64,000 nucleotides of DNA from Sutcliffiella horikoshii. Its GTDB lineage: Bacteria; Bacillota; Bacilli; Bacillales; Bacillaceae_I. The position numbers and the translations under genes were made by a program. Where the stretch lies: positions 2,000,666 through 2,064,665 of the forward strand of contig KV440964.1 of NCBI GenBank assembly GCA_001636495.1. Reading direction: 5' to 3'. The notes under the pieces were generated by a model, which saw only the letters and a program-made list of their open reading frames with translations, was not told where the DNA came from and searched no databases. How positions within the stretch are numbered: position 1 is the stretch's first letter; each line of letters begins with the position of its first letter. This document shows positions 23,294 through 51,712 of the stretch, piece after piece.

Positions 23294-23564
23294 TACCGTG
23301 CATCCTTTCTGAATTATCCAATTTTTAGTGCGTTGTAAAAGGATAGCGTTTTCATTAGAAAATATTGAAAAATACCTTGTATAAAGACGAACGTTTAGCT
23401 ATATAAAAATAATAATAGTAAGTGTTTTAGTATTGCCAGAATCCTTTGTCTAATGGTAGGATAATAGTGAGCTTGGAAAGGTGATTTCCCTAACTCAATA
23501 AACATGAATGTTGTAACTTCCTATCTAGTATGACCATGTTTGAAAAAAATATTATATTGCGAAT

Positions 23565-23802
23565 GAGAACAAGGGGAGAGACTGTCCACTAAGATGCGGC
23601 AGCGCCGAAGGAGCAAGCAAACTAAATGTGAATCTCTCAGGCAAAAAGACTCTTGTTGGACGCAGCTCTGGAGAGTGTTTATTCTTGTTTTGCATGGATA
23701 AACCACCAAAGGGGAAAGCCTTCTACATAAGGTAAACTTTCAGGTGCAAGGGACAGAGAACTCTTTTTTGAAAAAAGGAGCTTCTCTGTCCTTTTTTGAG
23801 CA
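23565..23802 (+). promoter_or_regulatory. Tandem glycine riboswitch with expression-platform terminator
   Basis: Two glycine aptamers follow one another. The first runs from GGGGAGAGACTG through GCGCCGAAGGAGCAA to GCAGCTCTGGAGAG. The second runs from ACCACCAAAGGGGAAAGCC to CTTTCAGGTGCAAGG. These are the family's conserved core strings. GGACAGAGAA pairs with TTCTCTGTCC before a T run (23751-23795), giving a terminator. Glycine binding should favour read-through into gcvT, as in B. subtilis. The 270 bases to the left, up to yqhH, hold the divergent promoters and no gene. Confidence 0.95.
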
Positions 23803-30905: not shown

Positions 30906-31703
30906 ATGACGATTGCTATTAATGAAAACAAATTGAAAATCAATGTAGAACGCTTGAACAAGGACATCGGCTTGTTTCCTCAAGTACACCCCATTTCAGA
31001 GGACATGACCACCACACATAAAGGTGTTTCCCGCCTGGTCATGCTCGATCGTTACGCATTCAAAGATACAGAGAAAGTAACCCTTACAGCTGGAGATTTT
31101 GTTGTATTAACGATAAAAGAAGATCCTAAATTCCCTGCAAGAGGTCTTGGTTATATACAAGACATTGACTGGTCTACCAAAAAGGCTTCTGTACTAATTG
31201 AAGAAGAGTATCGTGGAGTTTTGACAAAGCAAGGTGAAGCCGAAACGGGCGTTGTCGTTCGTTCCCTGGATGTCATTGAGAAGCCTCTGGAAGTCTTTTA
31301 CGAGCAAATTGCCAAACGTAACGCAAAAGGCTTGGCAGCGGTAGAAACGACAGAAGAGAAGCGCCAGGAATGGTTTGAAAAGTTCTATCATGAATTGGTT
31401 AACATGAACTTTGTTCCAGCAGGACGTGTGTTATACGGAGCTGGGGCAGACACAGATGTAACTTATTTCAACTGTTACGTGATGCCGTTCGTACAAGATT
31501 CTCGTGAAGGAATTTCAGAACACCGTAAACAAGTAATGGAAATCATGAGCCGCGGAGGCGGAGTTGGTACAAACGGATCAACGCTTCGTCCACGAAACGC
31601 GCTGGCAAGAGGGGTGAACGGTAAATCCTCTGGTAGTGTCTCCTGGTTGGATGACATTGCAAAATTAACACATCTTGTGGAACAAGGTGGATCAAGACGT
31701 GGT
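30906..31703 (+). CDS. nrdJ: Class II ribonucleotide reductase, exon 1
   Basis: First 266 codons of an adenosylcobalamin-dependent ribonucleotide reductase, which makes deoxyribonucleotides. It holds the first redox cysteine in YFNCYVMPF and ends inside LVEQGGSRRG, a conserved loop. Reading continues only 3 codons into the intron before a TAA at 31713, so unspliced mRNA gives a truncated protein. The ATG at 30906 has AGAGGAG eight bases upstream; an upstream in-frame ATG at 30882 lies inside the hairpin and is rejected. The spliced protein would be 855 residues, normal for the family. Confidence 0.93.
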
Positions 31704-32023
31704 AAATCAGCTTAAGTGCCTCGTCTATAAACAAACCTCGTGAATTGCTGGAAAGTCTTTTATGACTTGTTGGCTACAACGTGACTGGAAACGGTGAGCG
31801 TGAATGCTTAAAAACAACAAGCGGTCAAAGATAATCAGCAGCCAAGCACCTGTGAAATGGTGAAGGTTCAACGACCATCGAAAACATGCCGAAGTATGGC
31901 AGAAGTGAGTAGAGTAGGATTCAAGCGAATCCGAAGTGCGAGGACACTTTAAAAAGTGTAAGATATGGTCTGAACTCTATGGTGACATAGAGAGTCGATT
32001 AAGCGAATCGGCGTAACGAAATG
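31704..32023 (+). ncRNA. Group I intron interrupting nrdJ
   Basis: A 320-nt self-splicing intron without an endonuclease gene. The 5' exon ends in U and the intron ends in G. The last exon bases GACGTGGT (31696-31703) pair with an internal guide GCCTCGTC (31718-31725) through seven pairs, including the required terminal U-G, with one U-U mismatch. Core strings GTTCAACGACC (31866-31876) and AAGATATGGTC (31960-31970) are the conserved R and S segments; their GACC and GGTC form P7. Small hairpins ATTCAAGCGAAT, ACACTTTAAAAAGTGT and CTCTATGGTGACATAGAG fit peripheral stems. Removal joins SRRG to AQMIML exactly in frame. Confidence 0.93.
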
Positions 32024-33793
32024 GCTCAAATGATTATGCTAGCAGACTGGCATCCGGATATCGTAGAATTCATCATCTCCAAAATGCAAAACCCGAGAAT
32101 TTTACGCTACCTAATTGAAAATACAAATGACGAAAGCATCAAGAAAGCTGCAGAGGACAAGTTGAAGTTCACGCCATTAACAGATCAGGAAATCACGATG
32201 TACCAATCTGTTACAAACTTCAAACACATCCCTGGATATGGCGGATTTACAGAAGCCATCATCAAGGATGCTGAACAGAAACTAAAAGTTGGCGGAACTT
32301 ACACGGTTCATAACTCAGAGTTCCTGACAGGAGCCAACATCTCCATTACCTTAACGAAAGAGTTTATGGAAGCTGTTGAAAACGACGCTGACTTTGATCT
32401 TCGTTTCCCAGATGTGGAAGCATACGATAAAGACGAAATGGCCATCTACAATGAACAGTGGTCAGAAGTTGGAGACGTGCGAGAGTGGGAGAAACTTGGT
32501 CACAAGGTGAGAGTGTACAGAAAGATTAAGGCGAAAGAACTTTGGAACCTGGTCAATATTTGTGCAACCTACTCAGCTGAGCCTGGAATCTTCTTCATCG
32601 ACAATGCTAACGATATGACAAATGCAAAAGCATATGGACAAAAGGTTGTAGCAACCAACCCATGTGGGGAACAACCCCTCGCACCATTTTCTGTCTGTAA
32701 CTTAGCAGCTGTTAACTTGGCTCAATTTGCGGATAAGGAAACGAAAACAGTAAACTTTGAAAAGCTGAAACAAACAGTGGAAGTCGGCGTAAGAATGCAA
32801 GATAACGTTATCGATGCAACGCCTTACTTCTTAGAAGAAAATAAAAAGCAAGCATTAGGTGAACGCCGTGTTGGTTTAGGAGTAATGGGTCTTCACGATC
32901 TTCTAATCTATTGCGAAACAGAATACGGTTCTGAAAAAGGCAACGAGCTTGTAGACAAGGTTTTTGAAACGATTGCAGTTACAGCGTATCGTGCTTCCGT
33001 TGAACTTGGAAAAGAAAAGGGAAGCTTCCCGTTCTTAGAAGGTGCTACAGAAGAAGAAACCAACCGTCTTCGTGACGCATTCACGAAAACAGGCTTCATG
33101 AGCAAAATGCCGGAAGACATTAAAGAAGGTATCTTGTCTTCTGGAATCCGTAACTCTCACCTATTAACAGTAGCTCCAACCGGATCTACAGGAACAATGG
33201 TAGGGGTGTCAACTGGACTTGAGCCATACTTCTCCTTCTCTTACTTCCGCAGTGGACGTTTAGGGAAGTTTATCGAAGTTAAAGCCGACATTGTACAAGA
33301 GTACCTGAATGCCAACCCTGGAGCGGATGCAGAGAACCTTCCGAACTGGTTCATTTCCGCGATGGAGTTAGCTCCAGAAGCGCATGCCGATGTACAATGC
33401 ATCATCCAAAATTGGATTGACAGCTCTATTTCCAAAACGGTAAACGCTCCGAAAGGATATTCAGTTGATCAGGTCAAGAAAGTATACGAACGTCTTTACA
33501 AAGGTGGAGCAAAAGGTGGTACCGTTTATGTAGACGGAAGCCGTGACTCCCAAGTATTGACGCTGAAAGCGGAAGAAAACACCATGGATGATAGTGAACA
33601 GATTCAGATGGAAGACGTGGTAAAGAAGCCGGTTGTACTTGTTGAAACAATTAACGATCTGCGTTCAACCAATGTTCAATTCGGATCTGAAGTCGGAAAT
33701 ACATGTCCGGTTTGCCGAATAGGAACTGTTAAGGAAATTGGCGGATGCAATACGTGTACGGATTGCGGTGCCCAACTGAAGTGTGGTCTATAA
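32024..33793 (+). CDS. nrdJ: Class II ribonucleotide reductase, exon 2
   Basis: The remaining 589 codons. It starts with AQMIMLADWHPDIVEFI, which continues the interrupted loop. The thiyl radical cysteine is in NPCGEQPLAPFSVC, whose second Cys, 11 residues on, is the redox partner of the exon 1 Cys. The tail TCPVCRIG followed by GCNTCTDCG is the Cys-rich re-reduction and zinc segment of class II enzymes. The last three bases of the intron happen to read ATG in frame, so automated callers will start a false separate gene at 32021. A terminator follows the stop. Confidence 0.93.
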   Translation, partial: AQMIMLADWHPDIVEFIISKMQNPRILRYLIENTNDESIKKAAEDKLKFTPLTDQEITMYQSVTNFKHIPGYGGFTEAIIKDAEQKLKVGGTYTVHNSEFLTGANISITLTKEFMEAVENDADFDLRFPDVEAYDKDEMAIYNEQWSEVGDVREWEKLGHKVRVYRKIKAKELWNLVNICATYSAEPGIFFIDNANDMTNAKAYGQKVVATNPCGEQPLAPFSVCNLAAVNLAQFADKETKTVNFEKLKQTVEVGVRMQDNVIDATPYFLEENKKQALGERRVGLGVMGLHDLLIYCETEYGSEKGNELVDKVFETIAVTAYRASVELGKEKGSFPFLEGATEEETNRLRDAFTKTGFMSKMPEDIKEGILSSGIRNSHLLTVAPTGSTGTMVGVSTGLEPYFSFSYFRSGRLGKFIEVKADIVQEYLNANPGADAENLPNWFISAMELAPEAHADVQCIIQNWIDSSISKTVNAPKGYSVDQVKKVYERLYKGGAKGGTVYVDGSRDSQVLTLKAEENTMDDSEQIQMEDVVKKPVVLVETINDLRSTNVQFGSEVGNTCPVCRIGTVKEIGGCNTCTDCGAQLKCGL

Positions 33794-47287: not shown

Positions 47288-47457
47288 CTCTTATCAAGAG
47301 TGGCAGAGGGACTGGCCCTATGACGCCCAGCAACCGTTCCGTTTGGAATTGGTGCTAAATCCTGCAAAACAGTGATGTTTTGAAAGATGAGAGAGGGACA
47401 AGTCTATTTGTTTTCATTTAGCGCTCAAACCTCTCTTACTTGGAGAGGTTTTTTATT
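47288..47457 (+). promoter_or_regulatory. SAM-I (S-box) riboswitch with terminator
   Basis: P1 is CTCTTATC (47288-47295) pairing with GATGAGAG (47386-47393). Between them are the conserved S-box strings GAGGGACTGGCCC, ATGACGCCCAGCAACC and GGTGCTAAATCC. The terminator is AACCTCTC (47428) with GAGAGGTT (47443) and T run. The P1 3' strand GAGAGAGG can pair instead with CCTCTCTT of the terminator, forming the antiterminator. High SAM should turn downstream genes off; low SAM or methionine turns them on. Confidence 0.96.
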
Positions 47458-51384: not shown

Positions 51385-51712
51385 CTGCATAACGAAGATT
51401 TGTTTTAAACATTTCGGAGTATAAGAACAAAGGCTATGATAAGAAAGAGTAGCAATCATGTAAACAGACAGAAAGTTACCGGCTGATGAGAGGTGCATGT
51501 TGAACGATTGTGAATACATCTTGGAGCTGTGTACCGAAAAGTCATGACTGTGACTGTGTAGGCTACACCGGTGAAGCACCCGTAATCATGTGCTAGAGTA
51601 TCGTCATATGACTGTACTTTCAAAGGTAGGCAATGTGAATTGCTTATGAATTAAAGGTGGTAACACGAGATGAATCGTCCTTTTGGTTAATCCAAAAGGG
51701 CGTTTTTTTTTA
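51385..51712 (+). promoter_or_regulatory. Tyrosine T-box riboswitch
   Basis: Leader of about 330 nt before tyrS. The specifier codon TAC (51515-51517) lies in the loop GTGAATACATC, the AG-bulge area is AGAGTAGCAATC, and the T-box proper is AAAGGTGGTAACACGAG (51653-51669), which pairs with the uncharged tRNA end. The terminator is CGTCCTTTTGG pairing with CCAAAAGGGCG (51676-51702) and T run. Uncharged tyrosyl tRNA should switch on tyrS. Confidence 0.95.

Follow-up and report, generated by a model that had tools for sequence, protein, structure and literature searches.

A probably active group I intron in the class II ribonucleotide reductase gene of Sutcliffiella that appears to have lost its homing gene

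Group I introns favour conserved sites (PMC2814812, available part), and genes for ribonucleotide reductase (RNR) are among their known hosts: according to the accessible text of the RNRdb paper (PMC2795772), curation of RNR entries had recorded more than 100 group I introns by 2009. Close bacterial cases, described in the available portion of PMC3984707, are the introns of Bacillus nrdE, nrdF and recA and of the flagellin gene of thermophilic Bacillus, which are likewise group I introns in protein genes and some of which have been linked to phage introns. Whereas these interrupt a class I reductase, recA or flagellin, the intron reported here lies in a class II reductase gene, nrdJ, at GGSRRG^AQM (the caret marks the insertion point). 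Among the matches listed by a search of the PMC literature, and in those of their parts that were accessible, there was no report of introns in Bacillaceae nrdJ, but some of these introns may already be in RNRdb, given how many RNR introns are curated there.

The intron occupies 320 nt of the + strand, positions 31704-32023 of the window, by which we mean the whole 64,000-nt stretch of a Sutcliffiella genome that was analysed; its insertion point is called site A below. A first-pass annotation, made from the letters of the window, had placed a group I intron there and named a covariance-model search as a check. This search, now run, bore the proposal out: Rfam family Intron_gpI (RF00028) matched 31664-31992 on the + strand with 73.6 bits (E 8.4e-17; gathering threshold 50). 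The boundary letters, ...AGACGTGGT^AAATCAGCTTAAGTG...CGAAATG^GCTCAAATG, fit 31704-32023 exactly, with a U at -1 before the 5' cut and G as the last intron base, and the exon flanks, once joined, match nrdJ of uninterrupted relatives. As had also been stated, the intron carries no homing endonuclease gene, in that no open reading frame of 60 codons or more was found within it on the + strand. The features of the locus are as follows.

30906..31703, + strand: nrdJ exon 1, 266 codons, ending in GGSRRG (profile match, dN/dS)
31696..31703, + strand: 5' exon strand of P1, GACGUGGU, with U.G at -1 (kept in 37 of 40 distinct site-A introns)
31704..32023, + strand: group I intron without an endonuclease gene, 320 nt (Rfam, 13-intron alignment, uninterrupted alleles)
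31713..31715, + strand: in-frame TAA at intron codon 4, ahead of the ribozyme core (early stop in relatives)
31715..31717, + strand: P10 strand, pairing with 3' exon GCU at 32024-32026 (partial co-variation at exon +3)
31718..31725, + strand: P1 internal guide, GCCUCGUC (alignment, splice-site comparison)
31736..31742, + strand: P3 5' strand; 3' strand at 31937-31943 (no variation in 13 introns)
31746..31751, + strand: P4 5' strand; 3' strand at 31835-31840 (13-intron pair count)
31755..31760, + strand: P5 5' strand; 3' strand at 31827-31832 (five of six pairs in 13/13 introns, outer pair in 6/13)
31761..31763, + strand: P5/P5a junction, the place of the endonuclease gene or its remnants in relatives (locus comparison)
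31762..31825, + strand: P5a and inner P5b/c hairpins (five two-sided pairs in both helices together; outer P5a pair in 5/13)
31841..31867, + strand: P6 and P6a (one two-sided pair)
31873..31877, + strand: P7 5' strand, GACCA; 3' strand UGGUC at 31966-31970 (Rfam, pair count)
31887..31901, + strand: P7.1 (two-sided change in 3/4 pairs)
31917..31932, + strand: P7.2 (two-sided change in 3/6 pairs)
31944..31959, + strand: P8 (two-sided change in 4/7 pairs)
31975..31992, + strand: P9 with a GUGA tetraloop (two-sided change in 1/7 pairs)
31994..32012, + strand: P9.1 (two-sided change in 2/7 pairs)
32024..33793, + strand: nrdJ exon 2, AQMIMLAD... to the stop (profile match, dN/dS)

As first proposed, the interrupted gene encodes a class II RNR, and the intron sits inside its conserved GGSRRG-AQM site; by nrdJ, the nearest named relatives are S. 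horikoshii. Exon 2 alone scored 1169.5 bits against the vitamin B12-dependent ribonucleotide reductase profile NF005991 (cut-off 854) and exon 1 scored 502.8 bits, the two covering adjoining profile positions, 5-266 and 266-858. In 56 uninterrupted proteins, conservation averages 0.982 over the 21 residues with site A at their centre, which is the 90th percentile of the protein. Comparisons with Sutcliffiella relatives gave dN/dS values of 0.009-0.049 for exon 1 (seven comparisons) and 0.011-0.018 for exon 2 (six; unequal lengths led to the exclusion of L090, L009 and, for exon 2, L085), with no internal stops in either, which indicates strong purifying selection on both exons. Annotation software is likely to split such nrdJ genes into two pieces.

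The description of nrdJ as essential-type was overstated: the genome also holds an intact NrdE/NrdA-type gene (G000:C1:3692106-3693881; 755-residue frame, above the TIGR02506 cut-off), expected to be class Ib, and a gene of this type is present in 16/16 Sutcliffiella genomes, so that loss of NrdJ need not be lethal. It could thus be argued that nrdJ is dying or split, that the intron no longer splices, that the other reductase suffices and that the halves are made separately, exon 2 starting from ATG 32021, since the final three intron bases are an in-frame ATG. The first-pass annotation had foreseen that a second intact RNR gene might show this one to be dead; the second gene is indeed present, but the low dN/dS of both stop-free exons speaks for a living nrdJ. 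In addition, guide-exon pairing extends over at least six positions in every one of 40 site-A introns (read by eye), and the introns of relatives end in TTG, CTG, GTG or ATG, two of them in A, so that the ATG is not kept. We therefore consider a dying or split gene extremely unlikely.

Energy folding of the window sequence gave -93.7 kcal/mol (z -2.81 against 100 shuffles) and yielded P1, P3, P4, P5, P5a, P6a, P7.1, P7.2, P8, P9 and P9.1, onto which P7, a pseudoknot, was placed by hand. Both pairings that the earlier annotation had pointed out, P1 and P7, were found, at the positions listed above; P1 of the window copy has U.G at the splice site and a single U.U mismatch at -4. The structure drawn from this copy was then counted in an alignment of 13 distinct site-A introns shorter than 450 nt (window, L085, L004, L006, L007, L008, L022, L074, L045, L034, L054, L079 and L051). 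Standard pairs filled 95.7% of the 1170 cells (13 introns by named structure), 19 of the 90 pairs showed change on both sides, and 0/500 shuffles reached either the observed pairing or the two-sided count; only 34-41% of cells remained paired when the partner strand was shifted by 1-3 columns, and two-sided pairs then numbered at most five. This comparison with shuffle and slide controls excludes a chance fold. Further pair types came out below the shuffles (35 vs 40.6), probably because real pairs are limited to matched types.

The helices are not equally well documented by this alignment. The U.G at the 5' splice site is present in 13/13 introns, and P7.1 and P7.2, extra helices that are a feature of subgroup IA, are both present in site-A introns with two-sided changes. 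Co-variation says little for the core helices P3, P4 and P7, since P3 is constant and a single one-sided change was counted in each of P4 and P7; P3 is backed by the Rfam family model rather than by co-variation. The outer drawn pairs of P5 and P5a fail in 7/13 and 8/13 introns, respectively. P10 is short, with two pairs in 13/13 introns and the third in 7/13; these points, together with the U.U mismatch in P1 of the window copy, count against our preferred explanation.

The splice site itself was compared across a larger set of 40 distinct introns assigned to site A by a script, the guide pattern of which missed at least two more distinct ones (L138 and L159). Of the 40, 37 have GACGTGGT as the exon octamer that precedes the cut, and in the three exceptions the guide is altered to match: L051 and L155 have GACGCGGT with G instead of U in the guide opposite -4 (L155 with an additional G-A mismatch at -5), and L142 has GCAGAGGT with a guide read by eye as GCCTCT, giving six pairs. 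The 56 uninterrupted genes have 26 different octamers, GACGTGGT occurring in three. Third-position diversity at codons -1 to -3 is 0, 0.14 and 0 among carriers (13 rows) and 0.72, 0.74 and 0.65 among the uninterrupted genes; that of carriers is intermediate at codons -4 to -6 and similar to that of uninterrupted genes from about -7 outward. Such codon fixation would be expected either from a P1 helix that extends into the exon or from conversion over a short tract, and suggests that a splicing guide may lock synonymous codons of its host. The U at -1 is absent from all eight uninterrupted nrdJ of the GTDB family (GGA or GGG) and present in 19/56 of the wider set.

At the 3' side, co-variation of P10 is partial. 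At exon +3, T goes with guide A in 19/20 introns, A with guide T in 6/11, C with guide G in 1/6 and G with guide T in 1/1; these counts cover 38 introns, excluding L142 (no guide by script) and L078 (3' end of its second intron). The last intron base is G in 37/40 and A in two, the remaining one being a double insert. The two introns with a final A, L144 and L154, are possibly dead or differently spliced. At the 5' side, the first in-frame stop falls at codon 4 in 29 introns, codon 2 in eight, codon 5 in one and codon 12 in two; the available text of PMC3984707 regards such early stops as a likely means of letting the intron fold.

We predict, with a probability of about 0.92 and on sequence evidence, that the P1/P3-P9 intron splices itself and joins GGSRRG to AQM, in an element derived from a homing intron by loss of its endonuclease. 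Exon octamer GACGUGGU would pair with the intron guide as P1, with U.G at the cut; the P3-P9 core would bind guanosine in P7; and two transesterifications would join GGSRRG to AQM, giving full-length NrdJ. A ribosome on exon 1 would halt at intron codon 4, short of the core, so that translation would not unfold the ribozyme. The element would have arisen as a homing intron with an endonuclease gene at the P5/P5a junction, and deletion of that gene would have left the mini-intron now inherited within Sutcliffiella.

The distribution of the insertion was examined at three levels. In the GTDB family, nrdJ is present in 17/18 genomes (the genome lacking it is 80% complete); eight copies are uninterrupted, eight are split at site A and one at a second site, B. 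For Sutcliffiella, the site-A intron is missing from 7/15 nrdJ, six being uninterrupted and one split at site B. At the order level, site A is occupied in at least 34/397 genomes (30 from an intron search with flanking exons checked, and four from an endonuclease search), and the statement that group I introns are rare in bacterial protein genes does not hold in this order. The 397 genomes are an even draw from a larger group and are counted irrespective of the presence of nrdJ; in L164 the contig ends before exon 2, and some records represent one genome (e.g., L007 and G013).

An early stop close to the splice site could also serve a regulatory switch, in which splicing efficiency would respond to growth state, to GTP or to translation and thereby determine NrdJ supply, much as the first-pass annotation had suggested that dNTP supply could be coupled to splicing efficiency, because an in-frame stop at that place could render splicing translation-sensitive. 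The accessible part of PMC11878797 proposes introns as 'molecular on-switches' of phage enzymes including reductase, and that of PMC3653736 suggests that introns could aid phages via splicing control and cites T4 work on splicing and growth state. The patchiness of the intron within Sutcliffiella argues against a conserved regulatory role, as does the nrdJ tree, on which occupancy of site A changes 13 times or more. No other RNA family lies beside the intron at Rfam gathering thresholds, a result that also led us to reject a riboswitch coupled to the ribozyme. On balance, a regulatory switch appears very improbable, and self-splicing of an eroded homing intron remains our preferred reading.

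Site A is one of four insertion sites within 30 nt. Of 584 relatives in a contig search, 80 named loci were kept as the sample for site counts; nrdJ is interrupted in 24 of them, and the introns number 26, with 15 at site A (GGSRRG^AQM), six at B (GGSR^RG), one at C (GGSRR^G) and four at D (AQMIMLAD^WHP). Two genes have double introns, L078 at A and D and L066 at B and D; at 2390-4000 of L078 the two introns enclose a 24-nt micro-exon, and at 3302-4000 of L066 a 30-nt micro-exon. An Rfam scan of seven site B/C/D loci (L053, L059 and L069 being left out) gave six matches in five of them (L020, L026, L048, L066 twice and L078 once). It gave none for the site-A intron of L078 or for L009 and L057, whose introns contain ORFs; these two are classed as introns by their cores, which are 69-71% similar to the window intron over about 150 nt. 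Inteins were rejected as an explanation, the host frame reaching a stop within four codons of the insertion in interrupted named loci. A stretch of a Priestia megaterium plasmid that bears no annotated feature (NZ_CP045273.1, positions 849543-849824) is 70.8% identical to the window intron and covers 83% of it.

The clustering of these sites raises the idea that the 30-nt stretch coding for RGAQMIMLAD is a contested homing site of Bacillales nrdJ, used at four or more insertion points by endonucleases of three families (Vsr/EDxHD-like, LAGLIDADG and HNH), and that the mini-intron is kept as immunity for nrdJ. If so, an intron at one point would cut the overlapping targets of its neighbours. 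Sites A and B/C, 3-6 nt apart, are never occupied together in the 24 interrupted genes, and site D, 24 nt from A, co-occurs with both A (L078) and B (L066). The missing A and B/C pairs prove little, however, as chance alone predicts only about 1.3 of them in 80 genes (15 x 7 / 80), and we hold the immunity idea to be quite improbable. The four adjacent sites permit a test of mutual exclusion among homing elements.

Relatives of the window intron carry the gene that it lacks. In the site-A introns of L018, L024, L062 and L090, a gene of about 290 codons lies at the P5/P5a junction. Its last codons, NDLLATT, overlap P5a in these four and in L091, coding and ribozyme sequence being shared. The L090 protein matches DUF559 over cut-off and Vsr under cut-off. 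A nine-sequence profile of the site-A endonuclease found as its best PDB match 3r3p, 'Mobile intron protein' (E 7.2e-4), followed by Vsr 1cw0 (E 0.016), the 3r3p alignment spanning the catalytic region only. We take 3r3p to be I-Bth0305I. Single-sequence structure prediction of the endonuclease was poor, with a mean pLDDT of 42.5. Other sites have other genes, with LAGLIDADG in the site-B intron of L009 and HNH in the site-D intron of L026; ORFs in the site-A intron of L078 and the site-C intron of L057 look LAGLIDADG-like by eye.

Matches to the site-A endonuclease were found in 31/397 genomes, 13 of them strong (at least 80 bits) and 18 weak (at most 33 bits). All 13 strong matches are preceded by nrdJ exon 1, and 12 are also followed by exon 2 (the contig of L139 ends first); the weak matches L149 and L150 lie in loci without nrdJ. 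The nrdJ-linked genes are 54-74% identical to that of L018. The first-pass annotation had the intron depend on past spread or help in trans. The former holds in spirit, in that relatives have endonuclease genes at the same site, which would fit past homing by DNA cleavage; for the latter, a search of the window's own genome with the site-A type of endonuclease found no candidate. Phages were considered as a source of the endonuclease and rejected: four phage records match, all at less than 60% identity, and of 139 stretches of viral contigs that encode relatives, the best 80 are at most 44% identical, mostly over the catalytic region. Phage nrdJ was also considered as a donor and appears an improbable one: over residues 1-200 of exon 2, the best match from a phage is 60.4% identical.

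Between the endonuclease-bearing introns and the shortest ones lie forms that seem to be losing the gene. Endonuclease-like remnants (E up to 0.05) were found in 10 of 14 site-A introns of 325-700 nt and in none of the reversed controls; no remnant was found in the other four (L045, L151, L161 and L167). The remnants come from the gene's 5' end, its 3' end or both, the mid-gene match of L054 being doubtful, and are best read as erosion of the gene in place. The window copy is in turn best read as an eroded homing intron. One non-phage bacterial gene would thus display the homing-intron cycle, from uninterrupted target through endonuclease-bearing intron and eroding gene to mini-intron.

On an 84-row nrdJ tree, the number of changes required is at least 13 for site A (19 carriers), six for B/C (seven) and four for D (four). 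The Sutcliffiella introns form one clade (support 98/98), a result compatible with vertical descent and with spread alike, and within the intron tree the endonuclease-bearing L090 adjoins the window copy with moderate support (87/74). The intron tree is at odds with the host clade of L018, L022 and L034, which has a support of 97 in the corresponding nrdJ tree and was rejected with p_AU 0.0011; three further groups were not rejected (p_AU 0.255, 0.368 and 0.319); two long rows were omitted from these tests, and the four clades were picked after the trees were seen. Transfer between lineages is likely, resting on one test named post hoc. A co-conversion tract was also sought: within 30 codons, four-fold sites differ in 64/376 carrier-carrier and 91/304 carrier-uninterrupted comparisons. 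As carriers are nearer to each other further out too, we make no claim of co-conversion, for which the flanking exon gives at most a weak hint.

The trees also bear on the direction of change. Were the 320-nt form ancestral and endonuclease-free, relatives would have gained the gene later; the second of the three groups not rejected above (p_AU 0.368) unites the six endonuclease-less Sutcliffiella introns as one clade, as that order of events would allow. Partly deleted genes in most mid-sized introns, some retaining both gene ends, argue that loss is frequent, and the position of L090 beside the window copy also tells against an ancestral mini-intron, which we consider unlikely. Taken together, we infer that the window element is a real, probably active group I intron that went from endonuclease-bearing to endonuclease-less.

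The same genome has two further group I matches, one of 77.4 bits in hag and one of 41.8 bits, below cut-off, in tmRNA. The former is an intron near the 3' end of the flagellin gene (L001, G000:C1:1080636-1083965, about 1464-1838), a host already known in thermophilic Bacillus (cited in the accessible part of PMC3984707). Over its first 42 nt and the stop codon after them, this intron carries its own version of the flagellin C-terminus (QSNQMPQGVLQLLR). At the splice site assumed here, the unspliced message reads AMLA-QSNQMPQGVLQLLR-stop and the spliced one would read AMLA-QANQQPQGVLQLLR-stop, so that unspliced hag mRNA would still give full-length flagellin. That site is tentative, because the region folds no better than shuffles (z -0.31) and P1 would have only 3-4 pairs. 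Both copies of the C-terminus are kept in 30/30 order-level hag loci, own genome included, with six variants of the intron's copy, in which 3, 2 and 12 of 14 sites vary at first, second and third codon positions, respectively; this mostly third-position variation makes it look selected as coding sequence. No other paper on copied flagellin ends in introns was among the literature matches listed. In L092, L101 (G007), L097, L103 (G015) and L098 (G014), hag has additional breaks, which apparently reflect the presence of more than one intron. The tmRNA of L003 (from 1171) is apparently interrupted in its T-loop at about 1510-1790 by the second group I match, at 41.8 bits under gathering, a known kind of insertion according to the available text of PMC11915505; ARAGORN found no tmRNA gene in L003, and the Rfam tmRNA family does match it. 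The + strand of the window also has RNA elements ordinary for the group: a glycine riboswitch pair (23563-23758), a SAM riboswitch (47288-47393) and a T-box leader (51427-51685).

Compared with known systems, the nrdJ intron resembles that of the Nostoc punctiforme RNR gene (Meng et al. 2007, via the accessible parts of PMC12702839 and PMC3984707), likewise a group I intron in a bacterial RNR gene and described as spliced to a functional protein, although that host is a cyanobacterium and the case, judging by the title of the paper, involves an insertion-sequence element. Introns of Bastille-like and Twort-like phages in reductase and other genes mostly have IA-like cores and often an endonuclease encoded in a loop (PMC11878797, available part). 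Phage DNA, mostly from Staphylococcus phages, matches the window intron at 86-88% identity over 45-46% of its length (20 listed of 182 records), but these introns reside in phage genomes, and 0/182 phage records cover 80% of the window intron. Among the EDxHD/Vsr-like homing endonucleases, I-Bth0305I (3r3p), which is of the EDxHD type (PMC3943268, available text), is the best profile match of the relatives' endonuclease, aligned in the catalytic region only; the window copy is without such a gene. The tmRNA T-loop introns (PMC11915505, in the part available) differ in interrupting an RNA gene and in having few endonucleases (36/883), but offer a close parallel to nrdJ: they occupy four adjacent subsites, point to several founding invasions of a conserved stretch, and each follows a U.
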